DNA of 46,376 bases, taken from positions 1 to 46,376 of IMG/VR virus record IMGVR_UViG_3300045257_000154. One strand, 5' to 3'. Positions 1 to 46,376 of this stretch are shown in pieces (the stretch's first letter is position 1; every line of letters begins with the position of its first letter). This DNA is from a virus. The notes under the pieces were generated by a model. It did no database searches. It saw only the letters and a program-made list of their open reading frames with translations, and was not told the origin of the DNA. Made by a program: the position numbers and the translations under genes.

Positions 1-151
1 ACATCCGCTGCACAAGCGGCGCCATGGTTTTAGATGCGGTGGACTTTACCAAAGGCGGCGGCTCCTTCGTCTACATCGGCGCGGGTGATTCCTGTACCTC
101 GCTCAAGATCACCCGGTCCAAGATGGGCTGCGACTCGATCAACCAGAGCGG
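1..151. repeat. Terminal direct repeat, left copy
   Basis: Bases 1-151 recur at 46226-46376 with a single difference (T at 25, C at 46250). The repeat lies wholly inside a coding sequence that stays in frame when the ends are joined. This points to a circular or circularly permuted molecule, with the repeat being assembly overlap rather than a dedicated terminal repeat. Confidence 0.9.
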
Positions 152-11899: not shown

Positions 11900-12064
11900 A
11901 TGGCTAGAAATGCAGAAGTAGACCTGACCAACGCGCCCAAGTTGCCGGTGACACGCATCCCAAAGGAGGAACTGGCGGCGCTCAAGCGGGAGATGAAGGC
12001 GCGCAAGCTGCCGAGCCTTAGCCAACTTGTCCGCGTGCTGCTGCGCGAGGCGATTGCCAAATGA
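11900..12064 (+). CDS. Small ribbon-helix-helix-like regulator
   Basis: A 54-residue frame. A strand-like segment (KLPVTRIP) precedes helix KEELAALKREMKARKL, then a turn and helix LSQLVRVLLREAIAK. This is the layout of Arc/CopG-type ribbon-helix-helix proteins. It begins about 6 bases after a -10 box without a clear ribosome-binding site and overlaps the next gene by ATGA. Binding to the inverted repeat of its own promoter is plausible but not shown. Confidence 0.6.
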   Translation: MARNAEVDLTNAPKLPVTRIPKEELAALKREMKARKLPSLSQLVRVLLREAIAK

Positions 12065-12981
12065 AAGGCCTCTCCATTGCCGACTTCGAGCGCATGTTCG
12101 GCGGTCCGTTGGACAGCAAGACAGCATTCCATACGACGATCTTCGACTGGAGCTACGAGGTCGTCGACCAGAAGACCAGCGAGGCCATCATCCTTGACCT
12201 GCTTCTGAGGATCGAGCGCAAGGACTTCTCGATTGCCGGCCAGAACACCGAGAGATGGCAGAAGGGTTGGCAGGAGAACCTCGACGACTTCCGCCGCACT
12301 GGGGACGTCGCCTCACTGGAGCCGAAATACCTCCGTCCCTCCGAATACCTTCGCCTGGACAGCCAGTTCATCAAACCTATCGATCCGATGTTTGAACGGA
12401 ATTGGTATAAGGTGTTCCGAGGCTGGTTCGCGCGGCGCTATCTCAGCGAGTTCGATTGAATCTATGAGTTCGGCTGCGGCAGCGGCCACAACGTCGCTTT
12501 CCTAGCGGCGGAATTTCCAGAGAAAGCAATCTATGGCCTTGATTGGACAGAGGCCTCTTACGAAATCATCGAGGAGTTGGCTCGGCTGGGTCACAGAGTT
12601 GGCGCCCATACGTTCGATTTCTTCCAGACCCGCGAATTGACCTTCCAACCCAACACAGCAGTCCTGACCATCGGAGCCCTTGAGCAGACCGGCACGCATT
12701 GGCGCCCGTTCATGGACTTCCTGAAGCGCACCAAACCTGCCGGGTGCTTCCACATCGAGCCGATGGTGAACTGGTACGATCCAGCTAAACTGGTCGATCA
12801 CACAGCCATCAGGATTCACAAAGCGCGTGGCTTTTGGACGGGCTTTGCCGAAGAGGTGCGCGCGTCGATGCATCGCACGGGCTTCGGGAGCTTGCTATTG
12901 GAAGGCTACTCACAGGTGATTTGGAATCCCGCATTAATGCCTGAGCAGGCCCGCATCGATGCGCTGGAGGGTGCGCCTTGA
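12061..12981 (+). pseudogene. Class I SAM methyltransferase interrupted by in-frame TGA
   Basis: The reading frame is continuous over 306 codons except for TGA at 12457-12459. Upstream are 132 residues with PKYLRPSEYLRLDSQFI and a RYLSEFD end. Downstream the frame continues with the SAM-binding motif EFGCGSGHN, an acidic GLDWTEAS strand and late motifs (VLTIGALEQTGTHW). The stop lies directly before the motif. One G-to-A change from TGG (Trp) would explain it. Its product could methylate a sugar or small molecule made by the following genes. The TGA may be a mutation, a population variant or a sequencing error. Readthrough is less likely; other TGA codons act as stops here. Confidence 0.75.
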
Positions 12982-13202
12982 ACGTGAACCGACTGAGGAA
13001 AATTCTTGCGGCTGTCGACGGTAAAATGCGCGTCGAAATCGCTTATGATTCATTCGTGGTCACTGATGAACTTAGGCGTGGAAACGTCTGGGCTGGGAAA
13101 GATCCTTACGAAGAAGACGATGTTTTGTATCTGTGTGCGGACTCCGCCGGAGCGGGCTATTCCCCAACTGCCAAGCGTTATTCGCTTAAAAGGGTCGCAT
13201 GA
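12978..13202 (+). CDS. Small acidic protein of unknown function
   Basis: A 74-residue protein. It starts at TTG 12978, which overlaps the methyltransferase stop (TTGA) and has GGAGG nearby; GTG 12984 is an alternative. The sequence NRLRKILAAVDGKMRVEI followed by strands (DVLYLCAD) suggests a small alpha/beta fold. It overlaps the transketolase start by ATGA. Confidence 0.55.
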   Translation: MNVNRLRKILAAVDGKMRVEIAYDSFVVTDELRRGNVWAGKDPYEEDDVLYLCADSAGAGYSPTAKRYSLKRVA

Positions 13203-13957
13203 ACCTTGAAGCCAAAGCAGCGGAGATCCGCCGCGCCATCCTTGAGAACGCTCTCAGGATCGGCAAGGGCCACATAGCGAGCGCGCTGTCGTGGGTGGAG
13301 ATCGCCGTTGCGCTGTTCTACGGCACGATGAAGTCGGGGGATCGCTTTGTACTCTCGAAGACGCACGGCCATCTGACCTTGGACGCCATCCTTGCAGACC
13401 GTTCCAGAATATTGCCGGGAATGTTTTTTTGTCATGAGATGATGTGGCCGGGCTGGCCGGCGATCTGCAGCGGCTCATTGGGGCAAGGATTGGGCATCGC
13501 GGCGGGCATGGCGTTGGCTCAGAAACTCGACGGCAGCAAAGGACGGACGTTCTGTGTCTTGAGCGACGCCGAGCTGCATGAAGGAGCGATCTGGGAAGCG
13601 GTGATGTTTGCCGCGCATCACAAACTCAGGAACCTTATAGCGATTGTCGACAACAACCAGCAATCGTGTGCGAACTTCACGAGTGATGTTCTTAACATCA
13701 ATCCAATCCAGGCAAAGTTTGCGGCATTCGGATGGGACTCCGACGAATACGATGACGACCGAGGTCATAATGCCGAGGCTTTGGCCGGGCGTTTCACACT
13801 CAGGTCAAATCCCCCTCCGCATGAACATTGGCCGATTGTCCAGATTGTGAAGACCATCAAGGGCAAGGGCATTCCCTTCATGGAGGGCAATCCCAAATGG
13901 CACCACCGCCACCCCGAGGGCGATCAGATTGCGATAGCGCGACAGGCGCTTGCGTGA
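13199..13957 (+). CDS. Transketolase N-terminal half (thiamine pyrophosphate-binding)
   Basis: A 252-residue thiamine-diphosphate-binding subunit of a split transketolase. Visible are GKGHIASALSWVE (His25), LSKTHGHL, GSLGQGLGIAAGMAL (92-106), and the segment LSDAELHEGAIWEA...DNN (122-153). The last is the place of the GDG...N cofactor motif, but SDA replaces GDG. The region between residues 60 and 90 is shorter than in full-length enzymes. The partner C-terminal half lies at 14853. Together they would transfer two-carbon ketol units, probably to an unusual sugar substrate. Split pairs also occur in bacterial glycan and antibiotic clusters. Confidence 0.85.
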   Translation: MNLEAKAAEIRRAILENALRIGKGHIASALSWVEIAVALFYGTMKSGDRFVLSKTHGHLTLDAILADRSRILPGMFFCHEMMWPGWPAICSGSLGQGLGIAAGMALAQKLDGSKGRTFCVLSDAELHEGAIWEAVMFAAHHKLRNLIAIVDNNQQSCANFTSDVLNINPIQAKFAAFGWDSDEYDDDRGHNAEALAGRFTLRSNPPPHEHWPIVQIVKTIKGKGIPFMEGNPKWHHRHPEGDQIAIARQALA

Positions 13958-14190
13958 TCGAACAAGCACTTCCAAAGGGAACGGGGCGCGCGTGGGTTGA
14001 TGCGGGCTGGCTTCACTGGAAGGGAATACGCCAGATGGTGAAATTGCTTCAGTTTCGAGGCCATCACATCGAACACCTCGAGATTAGCACGGGGCTCGGC
14101 ACGAAGCATTTTGAGTTCAAGGGCGATGCTGATGCTGTCATGGAGATGGGCCAATATCTGAAGCGGCTCGAAGCCAGCAACAATGAGTGA
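13954..14190 (+). CDS. Small protein between the transketolase halves
   Basis: A 78-residue protein starting at GTG 13954 (GTGA overlap with the previous stop). Residues about 15-50 (RAWVDAGWLHWKGIRQMVKLLQF) are Trp-rich and helical, followed by strands and a C-terminal helix. No family is recognised. It overlaps the next gene by 8 bases. Translation through the operon is tightly coupled. Confidence 0.55.
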   Translation: MIEQALPKGTGRAWVDAGWLHWKGIRQMVKLLQFRGHHIEHLEISTGLGTKHFEFKGDADAVMEMGQYLKRLEASNNE

Positions 14191-14737
14191 CCTCAATCAG
14201 CAGGGGTTTGCAAGGCTTGGCATCGTGCCCTGGATAGATGACGTCGTGGCCTTTCTCGATACCTGCAAACGCTATCCCGGTCATATCAAGGCGCGGCCGA
14301 GGCTCGGCATGGAATGCAATTCCATGGAGAGCGTCATCGCTGCTCCGCACTTCCTCGCCTATGCGGAGAGCCTGACTCCGACCGTCTCTAAGTTCTTTGG
14401 CGAGCCTGCAATTCTCTGGTCGCTCAATGCATTTTATACGACAAAGCATACGCCCTATTTTCCCGGCCTGCATGGTCTGCACAAGGACCGTGGAGGCTCC
14501 AAGATCGTGGCCCTCTTCGTATTAGGCTACGACACTCCGATTGACTCGGCCCAGCTTCATATGCGTCCGGATGGCCTGCTGGAGCCCCTGTATGGACCGA
14601 AGGGCACGGCGTGGCTGGCCGACAACACTCAATATCATCTCGGCCTCATTCCATCGCAGCCACGCATGATGCTGTGGGCGCGCTGGGCAGAGAAGATCCC
14701 GCAGGAGTTCTTTAACGAAGGGCTCCCCAGCATATGA
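14183..14737 (+). CDS. 2-oxoglutarate/Fe(II) dioxygenase-like protein
   Basis: A 184-residue protein. It has the iron-binding triad of 2-oxoglutarate dioxygenases: His100 and Asp102 (HKD in LHGLHKDRGG), and His152 (QYHLGL), with Arg161 placed to bind the cosubstrate carboxylate. Strands around IVALFVLGYD and GTAWLADN fit the jelly-roll core. Such enzymes hydroxylate or otherwise oxidise small molecules, sugars, nucleobases or proteins. The neighbours suggest a sugar or base-modification step. The assignment rests on motif spacing only, and the substrate is unknown. Confidence 0.6.
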   Translation: MSDLNQQGFARLGIVPWIDDVVAFLDTCKRYPGHIKARPRLGMECNSMESVIAAPHFLAYAESLTPTVSKFFGEPAILWSLNAFYTTKHTPYFPGLHGLHKDRGGSKIVALFVLGYDTPIDSAQLHMRPDGLLEPLYGPKGTAWLADNTQYHLGLIPSQPRMMLWARWAEKIPQEFFNEGLPSI

Positions 14738-14853
14738 AGAAATTATCCCTTCCCGCGCACCGGGACGCCTGGCTGGTTGAAGGCTACTACGTTGTTTGCC
14801 GATGGCTTCCCATCTTCTTCTCTATCATGCTTTTGATTATCGTGGTGCGTTGA
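14734..14853 (+). CDS. Micro-membrane protein
   Basis: A 39-residue frame with ATGA overlap to the previous gene and TGATG junction to the next. The C-terminal half is a membrane helix (WLPIFFSIMLLIIVV). It could anchor the pathway enzymes at the membrane, but that is a guess. Confidence 0.45.
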   Translation: MKKLSLPAHRDAWLVEGYYVVCRWLPIFFSIMLLIIVVR

Positions 14854-15713
14854 TGAAGCGCGACTTTCGCGACGCTGTCTTCGGGGTCCTGCATGGCCTG
14901 ATGAAGGCTGATCCCTCCATCATGATCCTGTGCAACGACGCGGCAGCCTGGAAGCTGGACGAGATCCGGCAGGAGTTTCCCGAGCGCGCCATCAATGTGG
15001 GCGTGGCCGAGCAGAACATGATGAGCCTCGCTGCCGGCCTCGCCAGCGCGGGCAAGAAAGTGTTTGTCTACGGCATTATTGCCCATCTGATGAGGGGCTG
15101 GGAGCAGATCAAGGTGGGGATCTGCATTCCCAACCTGCCGGTGACGATCCTGGGAATGGGAGCGGGCCTCTCGTCTGGTCTGGACGGCCCGACGCATCAT
15201 GCCGTCGAGGACGTGGCACTGATGCGCGTCCTGGCCAACATGACGATCTACAATCCGGCCGACTGCGTGTGTGCCGAGGCCTGCGTGCGGATGGCTTACG
15301 AGGCGGGCACGCCGCATTACATCCGGCTCGACAAAGATCCGGCAGACGATCTTTACAGGCCCACATACGATTTCAGTAGAGGTTATGCGGTCTTTGGTGA
15401 CGAGCGAGATGACGCTATTGTTGCGACAGGAATCGAGACGCAAAGAGCGCGCAGGAAATATGCCAGTTGCGTAATTGATGTGTTTCGACTGAAGCCCGCG
15501 CCGGATGTTTGGCAGTTTGCTCTCAGCACCTGCGAAGTTTGGGACGAACATCATCCCCATGGTGGGTTGTGGTCCATGGTTGCCGAGCAGGCTTGCCTGG
15601 CGCGTCCGAAGACGCTGCAGGATGAGTTCATATTGGGGCCTGCGAAGCGCGAGCCGGTTACGGGCGAACTTGCATGGGTCGATGACGGCTATGGGATGCC
15701 GTTCCGTGGTTGA
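14853..15713 (+). CDS. Transketolase C-terminal half
   Basis: A 286-residue subunit with the pyrimidine-binding and C-terminal domains of transketolase. The catalytic Glu is Glu53 in NVGVAEQNMM, which activates thiamine diphosphate. Further family signatures are AAGLASAGKKVFVY, GMGAGLSSGLDGPTHH and YNPADCVCAEACVRMA. The start is ATG 14853 (TGATG), consistent with MKRDFRDAVF at the N-terminus of related subunits; an earlier start would add a foreign leader. It pairs with the N-terminal half at 13199, and the two are separated by three genes. Confidence 0.85.
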   Translation: MKRDFRDAVFGVLHGLMKADPSIMILCNDAAAWKLDEIRQEFPERAINVGVAEQNMMSLAAGLASAGKKVFVYGIIAHLMRGWEQIKVGICIPNLPVTILGMGAGLSSGLDGPTHHAVEDVALMRVLANMTIYNPADCVCAEACVRMAYEAGTPHYIRLDKDPADDLYRPTYDFSRGYAVFGDERDDAIVATGIETQRARRKYASCVIDVFRLKPAPDVWQFALSTCEVWDEHHPHGGLWSMVAEQACLARPKTLQDEFILGPAKREPVTGELAWVDDGYGMPFRG

Positions 15714-16383
15714 AATCACCAGGGAACGCTTCGTCAATCCGCGAACTGCGCTCATTACCGGAGGCAGCAGGGGCATCGGGCTTGCGATTGCCGATGCTCT
15801 GGCAATGCAGGGCAAGGAGGTGAAGGTTATCTCTCGAACCAAGCCGCCTCGGCATCAATGGATAGAGGCTGACGTCAAATGGGGCGGATGGGATTTCCTG
15901 AAGGTGGACATCCTCGTGAATAACGTAGGTGGCGGAGGGCGCTGGGGGGAGGAAATCATCGAGCATACGAAGCCCGAGGTATGGGACGAGGTTTATCGAA
16001 AGAATGCCGGCATTGCCACCGAGCTGACCATGCGAGCCCTTCCCTACATGCGCCGGAAGAAATGGGGACGCGTGGTGACCATCACGTCCATCCATGGAGG
16101 CAAGGACGGCAACGGACGGCCATGGTTTGTAATGGCGAAGGCGGCCCAAACGGCACTGATGAAGAGCCTGGCAACACAGAGCTATCTGGCGAGGGATGGG
16201 ATCACGTTCAACAGCGTGGCACCGGGTGAGATCGATGTGGGCAAGCCGCCAAGCTCCCCGGATGTGCGGATGGGCACGCCCGAAGACGTAGCGGGCATTG
16301 TCGCATTCCTGTGCAGCGACGCGGCCAAGCATATCAATGGGGCGAATATCATTGTCGATGGGGGACAAAGCCATGCGATCTAG
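15706..16383 (+). CDS. Short-chain dehydrogenase with altered active site
   Basis: A 225-residue Rossmann-fold oxidoreductase. The NAD(P)-binding motif TGGSRGIG is at residues 18-25, NNVG at 72-75, the structural Asn at 100, Ser128 in TITS and Lys145. The usual Tyr of YxxxK is Phe141 (FVMAK). A normal acid-base step is therefore unlikely unless another residue supplies it. The C-terminus has the family ending SVAPGEI...DVAGIVAFLCSD...DGG. GTG 15706 is favoured as start; ATG 15691 is possible. It would reduce or oxidise a keto intermediate in the cassette, or act only as a binding protein. Confidence 0.8.
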   Translation: MVEITRERFVNPRTALITGGSRGIGLAIADALAMQGKEVKVISRTKPPRHQWIEADVKWGGWDFLKVDILVNNVGGGGRWGEEIIEHTKPEVWDEVYRKNAGIATELTMRALPYMRRKKWGRVVTITSIHGGKDGNGRPWFVMAKAAQTALMKSLATQSYLARDGITFNSVAPGEIDVGKPPSSPDVRMGTPEDVAGIVAFLCSDAAKHINGANIIVDGGQSHAI

Positions 16384-16582
16384 GAAGCAATCAAAACAGA
16401 AACCTATCCCTGCATACGTTCAAAAGCTGATAGATCTATTTGAAGCCCAATCTGCCGAATATTGGCATCAGATCAGGCACTTTCACAATCGTATTGATGG
16501 CTTGGCGAATCGCTTTGAAGAAGTGATTGCGGCCATCAACGGAATGCCTGACAAGAAATTCCCAAGGCGCAAACGTAAATGA
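16373..16582 (+). CDS. Small basic protein
   Basis: A 69-residue protein, Lys/Arg-rich at both ends (SRKQSKQK, KKFPRRKRK), with a central helix (VQKLIDLFEAQSAEYWHQI). GGGGGA precedes ATG 16373, which overlaps the SDR end. It overlaps the glycosyltransferase-like gene by 4 bases. It could bind nucleic acid; function unknown. Confidence 0.55.
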   Translation: MRSRKQSKQKPIPAYVQKLIDLFEAQSAEYWHQIRHFHNRIDGLANRFEEVIAAINGMPDKKFPRRKRK

Positions 16583-17463
16583 AGATAGCGGCGCTGATCG
16601 TCACCAGGGGCAAGCCACGGCAGGTGGTGGGCATCATCGAGTCGATGCGGATGCTGGCGACGGGGGATCATGAGCTTGAGTTCCTGGTGGCATGCGATGA
16701 CGATGATCCTGATACTGTGCAGGGCCTGCGGGGCAATTTCTGGCCAGGCGATGTGATCATTGACGTAGGTCCACGTCCGGTAGGTGTAGGCTCATGCTGG
16801 AACAGGCTGGCGAAGCTGACCGACGCCGACGCGCTGATAACGCTGCCTGACGATGGGATTATCGCAACGCCGCGCTGGGATCATTGCATCAACTGGGCAT
16901 GGCGTAATCACGACTGGGTGCATCCGGATCTGAAGATCGGGGGATTGAAGGACCAAGCCAATCCCGGGCAACCCACGCTGTTCGTGATGGGCAAGCGATG
17001 GGTGGAGCTGGTGGGCGAGGTGCTCGACGCACGCTACCCGTTCTGGTTCAGCGATACTGCGATTGCGGAGACATACAGCTTCATTACGGGATCGGGACTG
17101 CCGATGCTGCCCATAGAGTTTGCCAGCAAAGGCGGGAAGTGGAATCCGAGGCTCCGGCGCATGTCGTTGTGGTGGGCTCATTACGGGCTCACCAGGGTGG
17201 AGCGGATTGGCAAGGCCATGATGATCCAGTCAGAACTCGGATTGCCCGTACCGCCAAATTTGAAGGACCTACATGCGTTGTGGGCAAAGAGGGATGCGGA
17301 CGGGCTGCCCGCGTCTGAGGAGATCGTGCGTCAGATCGAGAAGCCTGCACCATTGGACGAGCGTTATCTGGAGGCTGAACGTGCGGCTATCGAGTATATT
17401 GCCAAGCATTCATATGGCTGGAAGCGATTCGAGCCCTCAACGCACAATGACGATCGCTTCTAG
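16579..17463 (+). CDS. GT-A-like glycosyltransferase
   Basis: A 294-residue protein. The start MKIAALIVTRGKPRQVVGIIESM resembles the nucleotide-binding strand of GT-A glycosyltransferases. An acidic segment CDDDDPDT follows, then ALITLPDDG with the paired Asp that usually bind metal and nucleotide sugar. It is a paralogue of the gene at 32142 (shared layout: acidic DDxxT, then D-rich loop, then WDxxIxxAW). Its place at the end of the transketolase/SDR cassette suggests it transfers the product sugar. Acceptor unknown. Confidence 0.65.
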   Translation: MKIAALIVTRGKPRQVVGIIESMRMLATGDHELEFLVACDDDDPDTVQGLRGNFWPGDVIIDVGPRPVGVGSCWNRLAKLTDADALITLPDDGIIATPRWDHCINWAWRNHDWVHPDLKIGGLKDQANPGQPTLFVMGKRWVELVGEVLDARYPFWFSDTAIAETYSFITGSGLPMLPIEFASKGGKWNPRLRRMSLWWAHYGLTRVERIGKAMMIQSELGLPVPPNLKDLHALWAKRDADGLPASEEIVRQIEKPAPLDERYLEAERAAIEYIAKHSYGWKRFEPSTHNDDRF

Positions 17464-28078: not shown

Positions 28079-28381
28079 ATGAAGATGATCCTGGACCACG
28101 ACCCGGTGACGGGAATCTCCCACTGGGTCGACACCGACGAGAGCACCGGCATCACGACCTATGGCGCCGACCAGGAGGTCGCGCCCATCCTCGAAGCCAA
28201 CAAGCAGGACTACAACGAGAGCCACGGAAAGTGGGGCGAGTGGACCCGCGTCGGCTCGATCCCGATGACTCTGTGGATGCAGTGGTACGAAGAGGGGATC
28301 ATCAGCGACCAGAAGGAACTCAAGAAGCGTCTCAACGACATCGGCTTTCGCAACCTCAGGACCAGACCGGGGAATCTATGA
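28079..28381 (+). CDS. Small structural-module protein
   Basis: A 100-residue protein with a Trp-rich core (HDPVTGISHWVDTDES; HGKWGEWTRVGSIPMTLWMQW) and an NLRTRPGNL end. Similar proteins follow the SU10-type capsid gene in related phages. Role unknown; virion or head-completion protein is likely. ATG 28085 is an alternative start. Confidence 0.65.
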   Translation: MKMILDHDPVTGISHWVDTDESTGITTYGADQEVAPILEANKQDYNESHGKWGEWTRVGSIPMTLWMQWYEEGIISDQKELKKRLNDIGFRNLRTRPGNL

Positions 28382-29238
28382 AAATCGGCATTGTCAGCCC
28401 CGCAAGGGATATCGTGGACACCGGCTTCTCGTTCGATGCCCAGAACATGATAGGTTATACCTGCGCCCATCATCCCGAACTGACGCTCGGCTCGTTCGTC
28501 TCCAAGGGCACCATGATCTTCAACCAGAGAATAGACCTTGTCCGCGAAGCGATGAGTGAGGGCTGCGAGTGGATCTTCTGGCTCGACACCGACATGCGCT
28601 TCCCCAAGGACGCGCTGGTGAGACTCCTCGCCCACAAGAAGGACATCGTGGCCGCGAATTACGTGACGCGCCAGGTGCCTCCCGAGCCCGTCTCCTTCCA
28701 GCTCACTGACGACGGCAAGCTATGGCGCCGCGTTCCGACGCTGGCTGCCTCCACGGGCCTTGAGAAGGTCACGGGCGCCCCGATGGGCTGCATGCTGACC
28801 TCGGCCGCCGTCTTCAAGAAGATGGACAAGCCTGACGTGCCGATGTTCTGGTTCCAGTACAGCACGAAGAACCACACGACCCTCGGGGAAGACATCTACT
28901 TCTGCATCAATGCCGGCCGCTACGGCTTCGACATCTTCATCGACCATGACCTCTCCAAACAGGTCCGCCATGTCGGCATCTTCGAGTTCGGTCACGAGCA
29001 TGTAGACGAGAACCAGGCCCTTTCCATGCGGGCAGAAATAGACGCCGCCATCGTCACCGACCTGCACAAGGCTCCGGAAGACAGGAAACCCGTTGCTCCC
29101 ACTCCGCGCTATATCGGCGCCGAGGGCGTACACAAAGCCTTCGTGAGCGAAGAAATCAAGATTCCGGAAAACACCAAGATTCCACTTGAAGTGCATCAGG
29201 AACTCGTTCGGCGGAAGATTGCCGAGGTAGGCGGCTGA
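28378..29238 (+). CDS. GT-A-type glycosyltransferase in the virion module
   Basis: A 286-residue protein. The start MKIGIVSPAR and the metal-binding motif DTD (Asp70-Thr-Asp72, in FWLDTDMRF) fit a GT-A fold. Further features are ALVRLLAHKKDIVAANY and GAPMGCMLTSAAVFKK, with an acidic GEDIYFCINAGRYG near the C-terminus. It overlaps its neighbours by ATGA and TGATG, so it is part of the late operon. Glycosylation of capsid, tail, or host glycan is possible; the acceptor is not visible from sequence. Confidence 0.7.
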   Translation: MKIGIVSPARDIVDTGFSFDAQNMIGYTCAHHPELTLGSFVSKGTMIFNQRIDLVREAMSEGCEWIFWLDTDMRFPKDALVRLLAHKKDIVAANYVTRQVPPEPVSFQLTDDGKLWRRVPTLAASTGLEKVTGAPMGCMLTSAAVFKKMDKPDVPMFWFQYSTKNHTTLGEDIYFCINAGRYGFDIFIDHDLSKQVRHVGIFEFGHEHVDENQALSMRAEIDAAIVTDLHKAPEDRKPVAPTPRYIGAEGVHKAFVSEEIKIPENTKIPLEVHQELVRRKIAEVGG

Positions 29239-31900: not shown

Positions 31901-32145
31901 TGGCCGACCAACCAGCACTGGGGAACGTTCACTATCCCAAGGCAGGCTATCTCTACCTGCTGAACCGGCTTCAGAAGGCGGATGAGGACATCATGTGCCT
32001 GATTAACATCTGCGTCGCCAAGGACCAGAAGATCGCTGAGCTGGAGGCGAAGCTCATCGTGCCTCCGGACGAAGCCGTGAGCAATCAGGCGCAGAACAAA
32101 TATGCGTCTTCTTATCAGAACAACGTGTCGAACCTGAAGCCATGA
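31900..32145 (+). CDS. Small helical protein
   Basis: An 81-residue protein starting at ATG 31900. A central helix (LYLLNRLQKADEDIMCLINI) and an IAELEAKL segment suggest coiled coil. It overlaps the next glycosyltransferase-like gene by ATGA. Function unknown. Confidence 0.5.
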   Translation: MADQPALGNVHYPKAGYLYLLNRLQKADEDIMCLINICVAKDQKIAELEAKLIVPPDEAVSNQAQNKYASSYQNNVSNLKP

Positions 32146-32924
32146 AGATCGTGGTCATCATCCCGAGCCGCACGGCTCCTTTCAAGCTTCAGGAAATGCT
32201 GCACGAGGCGCGGCGTCTGGAGTCGGGAAGGCATGACGTCCGCTATGTGGTGGGGATCGACCACGACGACGAAAACACGCTGGCCATGGGCACTATGCTG
32301 CGCCTTCAGTCCGACAGGTACAGCTATCGCGTGTTCAAGCGCATGTCTTCGCTTGGAGCCATGAGCAACATCATCGCCGGAGAGAACCCGGCCGATTGCT
32401 ATTGCTCGCTGGGTAACGACGCGGAGATCATGACCTACGACTGGGACGAGGCCATCCACAAGGCATGGTCGGCACGGCCGGATGGCGTGTTCTGGTGGCA
32501 TGGCTGCGAATGCCCGATTGTCTCAGACCGCTGGTTCAAGGCGGCAGGCTATCTCTATACCGACCTCTTTCCCTTCTGGTGGGACGACAACTGGCTGATC
32601 CAATTGTGGGCGATGGCCAGCGACGGGCCTCAACTGTTCATTGAGGCGACGCTTGCGGACAGGCCGCTGGCAACGCTCAGGATGCGCGATCTGCGGTTCT
32701 GGACCGAGTTCTATGGAGCGATGAAGCCGGAGCGCCAGAGGGAAGCGGCACGGATTGCAACCGCCCTCGGTTGGCCTGTCGGGTCGCTGGAGGACGAGAC
32801 GGGAGACGTGAAGGATCATTTCTGGAAGATGATCGACAGTGTCGAGAAGGGACAGGGCGAGAGGGGACCGCCGACGCCTGAATATCTCAGGGCCTTCGAG
32901 CGCGCCCAGAGCATGGTGGCCTGA
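32142..32924 (+). CDS. GT-A-like glycosyltransferase, paralogue of 16579
   Basis: A 260-residue protein. It starts MKIVVIIPSRTAPFKL and has YVVGIDHDDENT and CYCSLGNDAEI as acidic motifs, then WDEAIHKAW. The order and spacing match the gene at 16579-17463, so the two probably arose by duplication or came from the same family. It sits among late virion genes, unlike its paralogue in the early accessory cassette. Acceptor and donor unknown. Confidence 0.62.
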   Translation: MKIVVIIPSRTAPFKLQEMLHEARRLESGRHDVRYVVGIDHDDENTLAMGTMLRLQSDRYSYRVFKRMSSLGAMSNIIAGENPADCYCSLGNDAEIMTYDWDEAIHKAWSARPDGVFWWHGCECPIVSDRWFKAAGYLYTDLFPFWWDDNWLIQLWAMASDGPQLFIEATLADRPLATLRMRDLRFWTEFYGAMKPERQREAARIATALGWPVGSLEDETGDVKDHFWKMIDSVEKGQGERGPPTPEYLRAFERAQSMVA

Positions 32925-43197: not shown

Positions 43198-44615
43198 AAA
43201 AATTCCTCCTTCTCCTGCTGCTTCCCGCCTGCGCATTGGCACAGACAGCGAGTACCTATTACACGGTGCCGACGATTGCCGCCCTCAAGGCGCTTACCAC
43301 GCGGCCCGGCGTTGTCGAGGTACGGGACAGCAATCCCGGCATTTTCAATTGGTCCACCTCGGCCTGCGGTGCTGCAGACGACATATTCCAGGTGACGCCC
43401 ACCTCCGGTCCTTCCGGCTGCTACAGCCGCATGGCAGGAACCTATGCCGTCGGAAAGAATGGTAGCACCTCAGTGTTCCTGCGCGGGGATAATACGTGGG
43501 CTACCCCGGCCGGCGCCGGAACGGTCACGTCGGCTTCGGTCGCCACCGCCAACGGCTTCGCGGGCACCGTTGCCAATGCCACATCCACGCCCGCGATTAG
43601 CATCACCACATCGATCACCGCTCCTGTGTTGAAGGGCGATGGGACCGCCATCGCCGGGGCGACTACGACGGGTTCCGGTTCGACGGTAGTTCTGAACAAT
43701 GGGCCGACGTTGATCGCGCCTGTTCTGGGCACGCCCGCTTCGGGCAATGCCTCGAACATGACAAGCATCCCCGTCAATCAGGCGACCGGCAATCTCCCTG
43801 TAGCCAACCTCGGCAGCGGCACTGCTGCATCGGCCTCCACGTTCTGGCGCGGTGATAACACGTGGGCCACCCCTTCAGGTGGCGGCAACATCTCGAATAC
43901 TGGCACGCCGACCAACGGTCAACTCGGGGTGTGGACCGCTTCGACAGTCCTTTCCGGCGTCACGCTCGCCGGAGACTGTACGCTAAGTTCGCCCAACATT
44001 ACCTGCACCAAGACGAGCGGATCCAGCTTTGCGACATCGGCCACGACGGACACGACCAATGCGTCGAACATTTCGAGCGGAACGCTCGGAGCGGCGAGGC
44101 TTCCCAGTCCGTCCTCCAGCACGCTGGGAGGCGTCGAGTCGATTGCCGCCGTGTCGCATAAATGGATCAACACCATCTCGACTTCCGGCGTTCCGTCGCT
44201 CACGCAGCCCGACATCTCCGATCTCAGCAGCATCGGAACCGGCGTTGCCACGCAACTTGCCAGTGCCGCCGATGGGTCGAGTGCATCCGGCATCGGCTTC
44301 CGGGGCGTGCCGCAGAATCTGCAGAGCACGAACTACACGCTGGTCATGGCCGACGCGGGCAAGCATATCTATGGCACCACCGGCACCAACACATGGACGA
44401 TCCCGGCCAATAGCGGCGTCGCCTTTCCGATTGGTACGGCCGTTACCTTCATCAATCTGTCGGGTACTGCGGCGACCATCGCTATCACGACCGACACGCT
44501 TTACCTCGGCGGAACCGGCACGACCGGCTCGCGCACGCTGGCCCAGTTTGGCGTGGCTACAGCAGTGAAGATCGACAGCACCCACTGGATCATCTCGGGG
44601 CCGGGACTGACATGA
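43194..44615 (+). CDS. Fibre-like protein with Sec signal peptide
   Basis: A 473-residue protein. Residues 1-16 look like a signal peptide ([16 protein letters not shown], then Q). The rest has tail fibre repeats: [15 protein letters not shown] and [27 protein letters not shown], and [10 protein letters not shown]. Such fibres are normally cytoplasmic virion parts, so a leader is unexpected. It starts by ATGA overlap. Confidence 0.7.
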
Positions 44616-45817
44616 AATACATTCTTCTCTGCCTCGCTCCTGTCTTCATGGCGACGGGAGCCCATGCGAGCGGCGGGTTGAATCTGATGGCTGCCCTGCC
44701 GACGGCAGGCGGAGGGCCTCCTCCCACCGGCTGTCCCCAGGGCAGCACTTATCCTGACGGCTGCTCGGCCAATCCCAACAAGGCCAAGACGCCGCAGTAT
44801 CCCAATCTCCTGAGCAGCTACAGCTTCAGGCCGCCGTGGAATGTCGCGGCAGTGGACATGTATGTCGGGCTCGACACCAGCCTGACGTTGACCGACTGGT
44901 CGACGCTCGGTGCGGGCCAGCACGTTGCGCTCACAGGTTCGGGCGGCGGCGGCGGCACGCAGGGCATCCAATGCAACGGCAGTTCCTCGATCGACATCGT
45001 TCTCGACAAGATCGACTTCACCCTGCATCAGGGCGCGGGCATCTATTGCGGTTCCGGGTCGGCTAAGTCGCTGACCGTCACCAATTCCAATTTCGGCTGC
45101 TCTCCCGTTAATAACACCGGCCCCAACCCGGTCGCCTTCTTCCAAATTCAAGATGCGAATATTCCGGTCACGGTACGTAACAGCACCTTCAACTTTCACA
45201 ACTGCAACGGGATGGGCGACAGCCAGGTCATCAATACTTTTGGCTCTATCATCTTTGAATACAATTTCGTGGAAAACGACACCAATCCGGCAGAGGCGCT
45301 CAACAATGGCGGGGGCGGCCAGGGGCTCTATGCCGGGACTCAGGGAGCCGCAGTGACCGTGCTGTCACGTTTCAACTACTTTGGCGACGAAAACAACCAG
45401 GGTACGGGGGCGCATAACAACTATCAGCAATGGGCAATTCTTAGCTCCTCCACAAGTTCGACGTGGTCGTTCAACACTGGTCGTCAATCGGTCAATTCCA
45501 TAGCGGCGGACCAGGGCGGCGAGTTCACGCAATGGTATGCCAATACCTCGGGCAGGATCGGCAGCGGGACGCTGACGTTCAACACCATGATCTGCACGCC
45601 CAGCCTCGGCCACACGACCTGCTCAAACTTCAGCAATGGGGGGAATCCGGTCGTCGGGGGCACGGTGGACACAAACTATTGCGATGACAGCGGCACCTTC
45701 ATCGCCTTCTATCCCGGCTCGATGACGCCTACGCAGAATTGGAACCGTTCGAGCGGCGGGCTGCACAACGGCATCGCGTGCATCCGCATGACTACTGGCG
45801 CGACGATTACCCCATAA
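44612..45817 (+). CDS. Secreted beta-helix-like protein, paralogue of the next gene
   Basis: A 401-residue protein with a signal peptide ([19 protein letters not shown], then S). The rest is rich in Asn, Gly, Ser and Thr with Cys pairs, as in a beta-helix. Shared segments with the gene at 45832 include YPDGCS/FPDGCS, the [21 protein letters not shown] region, GAHNN and GHTTCSN. A receptor-binding or secreted role is likely; not established. Confidence 0.68.
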
Positions 45818-45831
45818 CCCATGGCTGACGC

Positions 45832-46376
45832 ATGAAATTATACCCCATTCTCCTGCTTGCCCTCCTGCCCCTCTGCGCGCACGCTCAGACGGCTACGCTT
45901 AATTGTACGACGAGTAACGGCGTGATGACTTGTGTTGGACCGATCACCACTCCCCCGATCATCCCTCCCGTCGTCACGCCGCCCATCGTCATCCCTCCCG
46001 TCGCCGGCACATGCCCGATGGGGAACGCCTTCCCCGATGGCTGCAGCACGGCCCCGCTCAACGCAGTCACGCCACGCCACGCGGGCATCCTTGCGAGCTA
46101 TGGGACCAACCGTCCGAAATGGAATGTGGCGGGTGCAGACTACGAGGTCGGCCTAGATAAGAGAATTGGACTGACCGATTGGCACGCGCTCCCCACGGCA
46201 GTCATCGGCAGCGGTGGCACCCAATACATCCGCTGCACAAGCGGCGCCACGGTTTTAGATGCGGTGGACTTTACCAAAGGCGGCGGCTCCTTCGTCTACA
46301 TCGGCGCGGGTGATTCCTGTACCTCGCTCAAGATCACCCGGTCCAAGATGGGCTGCGACTCGATCAACCAGAGCGG
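45832..46376 (+). CDS. Secreted fibre-like protein, N-terminal part (continues at position 1)
   Basis: The 5' part of the gene that crosses the closure of the circle and ends at 854. It starts with a signal peptide (MKLYPILLLALLPLCAHA, then Q), a Pro-rich linker (PPIIPPVVTPPIVIPPV), and FPDGCS. With the left part it makes about 415 residues. It is open at the window edge, so no stop codon is present here. It is a tandem paralogue of the 44612 gene. Confidence 0.75.
   Translation, partial: MKLYPILLLALLPLCAHAQTATLNCTTSNGVMTCVGPITTPPIIPPVVTPPIVIPPVAGTCPMGNAFPDGCSTAPLNAVTPRHAGILASYGTNRPKWNVAGADYEVGLDKRIGLTDWHALPTAVIGSGGTQYIRCTSGATVLDAVDFTKGGGSFVYIGAGDSCTSLKITRSKMGCDSINQS
46226..46376. repeat. 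Terminal direct repeat, right copy
   Basis: Matches 1-151 except for C at 46250 against T at 25. The C makes Thr (ACG) where the left copy has an apparent ATG, so the C is more likely the coding state. Confidence 0.9.

Follow-up and report, generated by a model that had tools for sequence, protein, structure and literature searches.

A split transketolase in a phage-borne enzyme cassette, and its possible role in sugar tailoring

Why would a phage of otherwise ordinary content carry both halves of a transketolase in one run of genes with a methyltransferase, an oxidoreductase, an oxygenase and a glycosyltransferase? We addressed this for a 46,376-base IMG/VR virus record (IMGVR_UViG_3300045257_000154, analysed in full and hereafter "the window"), in which a first-pass annotation, made from the sequence, had proposed an operon that makes or alters either a glycan or a hypermodified base. 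Overall, the glycan reading is favoured over the modified-base reading.

Genome context and conservation of the cassette

The first 151 bases of the window (1-151) are repeated at 46226-46376 with a single T/C difference (positions 25 and 46250) that points to variation in the population or to an error in sequencing, and because of this terminal overlap the window is probably a complete genome. Among the window proteins scanned, the portal, scaffold and capsid families are podovirus-like, the nearest named portal being that of Sinorhizobium phage phiM5 (42%), and the remaining scanned proteins belong to usual families (terminase, portal, scaffold, capsid, NinB/Orf, O-like initiator). The picture of an otherwise ordinary podovirus thus stands, and its late region holds a further pair of GT-A-like genes (32142-32924 and 28378-29238), the former a 29% paralogue of the cassette glycosyltransferase. 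Two tandem paralogues, 40-43% identical and with N-termini resembling Sec signal peptides, lie at the contig-end junction (44612-45817, and 45832-46376 continuing at 1-854).

The cassette itself (12061-17463) comprises nine consecutive plus-strand genes, in this order:

12061-12981, plus strand: MT, class I SAM methyltransferase, 306 codons (Methyltransf_12 1.6e-5, Methyltransf_25 3.3e-5)
12978-13202, plus strand: small gene, 74 aa, no family match; no tblastn match in relatives, where other genes take its place
13199-13957, plus strand: TKN, N-terminal (ThDP/Mg-binding) half of a split transketolase (Transketolase_N, Pfam 1.4e-20)
13954-14190, plus strand: small gene, 78 aa, no family match; no tblastn match in relatives, not conserved
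14183-14737, plus strand: DOX, short PhyH-type Fe(II)/2-oxoglutarate (2OG) oxygenase (identified via distant homologues and Fe(II)/2OG residues)
14853-15713, plus strand: TKC, C-terminal (pyrimidine-binding) half, with a degenerate third domain (Transket_pyr 5.8e-28)
about 15691-16383 (start uncertain), plus strand: SDR, FabG-like short-chain dehydrogenase/reductase (adh_short_C2 7.6e-32)
16373-16582, plus strand: small gene, 69 aa, between SDR and GT, no convincing family match
16579-17463, plus strand: GT, GT-A-like glycosyltransferase (PHROG 14945 glycosyltransferase, 4.5e-8)

Family and PHROG matches thus recover the proposed transketolase halves, SDR, methyltransferase and GT-like gene. 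Most neighbours overlap, by 4-23 bases, in line with the tight packing described earlier, and a 115-base gap separates DOX from TKC. The two transketolase halves, as identified by Pfam, do flank other genes, but these are two (13954-14190 and 14183-14737) rather than the three first counted.

The order MT-TKN-DOX-TKC-SDR-GT is kept in four other IMG/VR contigs (L002, L004, L005 and L006; 61-92% protein identity), and L003, which is cut at its end, retains DOX-TKC-SDR. Compared with L002 and L004, the six genes have pN/pS ratios of 0.12-0.40, and purifying selection acts on all of them. Because the order recurs in four contigs and one partial contig, with such ratios throughout, the cassette is real and beyond chance. 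The small intervening genes vary among relatives, and in L002 a gene resembling DNA methylases separates TKN from DOX. After its SDR, L003 encodes a TPR plus GT9 (heptosyltransferase family) protein (L003:2783-4060), at the place of the GT-A gene in the other contigs.

Parts of the set also occur separately: L022 has DOX and GT, with TK, MT and SDR not detectable, and L023 has DOX alone, with a DNA methylase-like gene nearby. Conversely, in virus contig L007 (IMGVR_UViG_3300017613_003143), MT, TKN and TKC lie inside a full nucleotide-sugar cluster with its own dehydratase, epimerases, RmlC and GT2. Adjoining TKN/TKC pairs also occur in L008, L010, L011 and L012, which form a further, more remote group of virus contigs.

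The split transketolase and its companion enzymes

The Transketolase_N and Transket_pyr domains sit on two chains, and the Pfam scan of TKC gave no match to Transketolase_C. We considered a single broken transketolase gene and rejected it, since TKN and TKC find their closest counterparts of solved structure in the two chains, N and C, of the split transketolase from Carboxydothermus (6yak, 7.5e-35 for TKN; 6yaj, 5.4e-58 with profile A1 for TKC); the window transketolase is of a naturally two-gene type. In alignments (residues numbered as in E. coli TktA), TKN keeps H26, H66, D155, E160, N185 and H261, and TKC keeps E411, D469 and H473; the ThDP/Mg and proton-relay residues are thereby retained (H26, H66, D155, N185, H261, E411, D469 and H473). 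In place of the GDG motif, the window has SDA, and L004, L005 and the bacterial locus L025 have GDA.

The sugar-phosphate pocket (R358, S385, H461 and R520) is incomplete in the window enzyme: R358 is kept, the R520 position holds a Lys (where the alignment is unsure), and no clear S385 equivalent aligned. At position 461, the phosphate ligand is His in TktA of E. coli and in the Carboxydothermus transketolase, but Gly in all phage and sugar-island transketolases aligned, as would be expected if the acceptor were other than a simple sugar phosphate. In addition, F437, which stacks on ThDP, is a His in the window clade, and in L004-L006 TKC is reduced to 174 aa, having lost its third domain and stopping after the pyrimidine domain with the GIPFGG tail retained.

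The methyltransferase assignment rests on Pfam matches under the curated cut-offs (best 1.6e-5) and on a glycine-rich motif I (EFGCGSG); MT is 64-69% identical to its counterparts in L002, L004, L005 and L006, and 29% to that of L007. In the window, MT is interrupted by an in-frame TGA (12457-12459), whereas the reading frame is unbroken in L002, L004 and L006, and the corresponding codon is TTC in L002 and CAC in L004. The segments on either side are equally constrained (pN/pS 0.43-0.45 ahead of the TGA, 0.34-0.38 past it). TGA is also the terminal stop of MT, TKN, DOX and TKC, so recoding is unlikely, and we rejected it on this ground and on the Phe or His found at the site in relatives. The interruption fits either a recent mutation or a sequencing error.

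For DOX, the earlier guess of a dioxygenase holds, through distant homologues only. The phage proteins gave no direct Pfam match; a profile search finds alphaproteobacterial proteins, two of which (L062 and L065) exceed the PhyH cut-off, and H100, D102, H152 and R161 (the HxD...H...R triad plus the 2OG arginine) are invariant in 8 of 8 aligned phage and bacterial proteins. The predicted structure (pLDDT 38) was too poor for a fold call, a deeper viral search returned nothing new, and DOX had no match in the genomes carrying the MT islands described below.

The SDR has a recognizable cofactor motif (TGxxxGIG, present as TGGSRGIG) and lacks the catalytic YxxxK; the phage protein, like five of the six bacterial members, has FxxxK instead. 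We first read this Tyr-to-Phe change as decay, and dropped that reading on finding it in the bacterial proteins. As the subfamily is without the classical catalytic Tyr, the chemistry of the SDR is uncertain. The phage protein is 39-48% identical to SDRs adjoining bacterial MT homologues, with which it shares the signatures NVGGGGRWG and PWFxxAK. The GT is 67-84% identical among relatives; its structural model has low confidence (pLDDT 48) and yielded no fold match at E<=0.001, the weak best matches being mostly GT-A.

Bacterial relatives and proposed role

Homologues of MT (33-45% identity) occur in 13 bacterial and archaeal MAG contigs, and in 7 of 385 genomes of one class (including G018, the genome of L035). 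Around them we found two-gene ThDP enzymes, of transketolase type in L025, L027, L030, L032, L034 and L035 and of E1 alpha/beta type elsewhere, together with GDP-Man-dehydratase-like, GHMP kinase, epimerase and RmlC genes. Such a ThDP pair (transketolase or PDH-E1 alpha/beta type) is present in 14 of the 18 MT loci of ~10 kb or more, or in 10 of 18 when TK/E1 matches below 47% identity are disregarded, figures that describe an association and not an unbiased rate as the loci were picked by MT. The same SDR subfamily lies beside or near MT in 6 of the 13 MAG loci; L024-L029 include members with Phe for the catalytic Tyr, and atypical SDR chemistry may therefore be common in these islands. In L025, the dehydratase best matches GDP-heptose 4,6-dehydratase (7us5, 3.5e-80) and the kinase matches heptose kinases, which points to a GDP-heptose route as described for Campylobacter (PMC10680097). 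This Omnitrophota island (L025:2671-14230) holds three ThDP systems: an E1 pair, an acetolactate-synthase-like enzyme and a split transketolase.

In the transketolase tree and in the MT tree alike, the phage clade falls with Omnitrophota L025 (support 98/98 in the former; a 100/98 clade with L024, L025, L026 and L076 in the latter). Judged by sequence, MT, TK and SDR derive from one bacterial module and share ancestry with it, and MT groups with small-molecule enzymes of sugar clusters.

These associations, together with L007, support the sugar-tailoring half of the original proposal; its base-modification half found no support, as family hits of the proteins scanned included no pyrimidine hydroxymethylase or other base-modifying enzyme. 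The replacement of H461 by Gly and the interchange of transketolase- and E1-type pairs in the islands suggest that a ketol or acyl group is transferred to a keto-sugar, rather than that the enzyme takes part in pentose-phosphate chemistry. E1-type enzymes perform acetyl branching, and for miharamycin and amipurimycin it has been proposed that split-gene transketolases attach hydroxyacetyl branches to keto-sugars, a reaction for which a 2025 review reports no in vitro proof (PMC12247030).

The reading that we favour, with moderate confidence, is therefore a phage-borne nucleotide-sugar tailoring cassette, in which TKN and TKC branch a sugar at carbon, SDR, MT and DOX tailor it and GT transfers it. 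In the sequence of steps that we infer, TKN and TKC would form a single shared thiamine-diphosphate active site and move a two-carbon ketol onto a keto-sugar, giving a C-branched sugar. The acceptor would probably be a GDP- or other NDP-linked 4-keto-6-deoxy-hexose or -heptose; since no dehydratase, epimerase or nucleotidylyltransferase of the phage's own was found in the window (PF01370 matches only the SDR), it must be host-supplied. The SDR-subfamily protein and MT would then act on the branched sugar, as in the bacterial islands, the PhyH-type DOX may hydroxylate it or the glycan receiving it, and the GT-A enzyme may hand the sugar to a host surface glycan (LPS or other) or to the virion. 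Several observations count against this scheme, namely the lack of own sugar-nucleotide genes (which accompany the ThDP pair in the homologues and in L007), the interrupted MT, the lost SDR Tyr, the F437-to-His change and the shortened TKC of L004-L006.

Three other explanations were weighed. The split enzyme could be an ordinary pentose-phosphate transketolase, providing sedoheptulose-7-phosphate as a heptose precursor or shifting carbon for nucleotides, with the other genes using its product. Its fold and catalytic residues do match transketolase, and its relatives lie in islands of the GDP-heptose type, for which sedoheptulose-7-phosphate serves as precursor (PMC10680097); however, the phosphate-binding His461 and a clear Ser385 equivalent are missing, hosts already have a transketolase, and in other islands the place beside MT is taken by a PDH-E1-type pair, which is no maker of sedoheptulose-7-phosphate, so that we find this account unlikely. 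It also seems improbable to us that only DOX and GT work for the phage, as a pair modifying a glycan or the virion, with MT-TK-SDR a decaying bacterial hitchhiker. The persistence of DOX and GT in L022, where the other three are not detectable, the stop in the window MT and the missing C domain of TKC in L004-L006 would all be in keeping with such decay; yet TKN, TKC, SDR and MT (including the part past the stop) show pN/pS of 0.25-0.40 over large synonymous distances, the order is held in five genomes, and the SDR Tyr-to-Phe change is common to the bacterial members.

Least probable, in our estimation, is that the cassette decorates phage DNA, with DOX, MT and GT acting on a hypermodified base and TK and SDR making the donor sugar. 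The location between replication genes and terminase would suit this role, as would the oxygenase and GT pair persisting in L022 without the TK module and the DNA methylase-like genes nearby in L002 and L023. Against it, the family hits of the genes scanned (which left out some small ORFs) include neither a base hydroxymethylase nor a base-modifying kinase, the relatives of MT are enzymes of sugar islands, not DNA methylases, and DOX is of PhyH type.

If the transketolase does branch a sugar at carbon, bacteria would by the same logic have a widespread and so far uncharacterised route to branched heptoses, marked by MT, the Phe-for-Tyr SDR and the ThDP pair. The cassette and its bacterial kin also supply a few candidates for ketone-accepting split transketolases, some with the pyrimidine domain alone in the second chain, and, should the phage alter surface or virion glycans, carbon-carbon bond chemistry would be tied to phage-host recognition.

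Comparison with known systems

Neither MT nor DOX was found in cultured phages (50,697 phage records), where transketolase matches are distant only and mostly to unannotated gut records, and the literature searched (phage transketolases with LPS or glycan genes) holds no description of this gene set, in agreement with the initial impression that no phage system with exactly this set had been described. The closest solved enzyme, the Carboxydothermus hydrogenoformans split transketolase (6yaj, 6yak), likewise has two chains with the catalytic residues kept, the N chain aligning over residues 2-248 and the C chain over the pyrimidine-binding domain and beyond. It differs in that the window has two genes between the halves, Gly for H461, His for F437, SDA for GDG, and a third domain that is degenerate or absent in the phages. 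The miharamycin and amipurimycin systems (compared by description; PMC12247030) also combine a split transketolase with a sugar-tailoring oxidoreductase and other tailoring genes, but every case reported comes from Streptomycetes and is proposed for an antibiotic cluster.

Also related in gene content are the bacterial GDP-heptose-type islands (L024-L035), which share homologous MT, TK and SDR subfamilies; relative to them, the phage set is without dehydratase, kinase, epimerases and RmlC, and adds DOX and its own GT. The viral cluster of L007 likewise groups MT, TKN and TKC, but encodes dehydratase, epimerases, RmlC and GT2, with no DOX or cassette GT detected. Set against these systems, the cassette is a new version of the known phage-borne glycan-tailoring cassettes, and we tentatively propose, as a possibility somewhat short of even, that it holds the first virus-borne ThDP enzyme to C-branch a sugar, through which a host keto-sugar nucleotide would be branched, tailored and put on a host or virion glycan.
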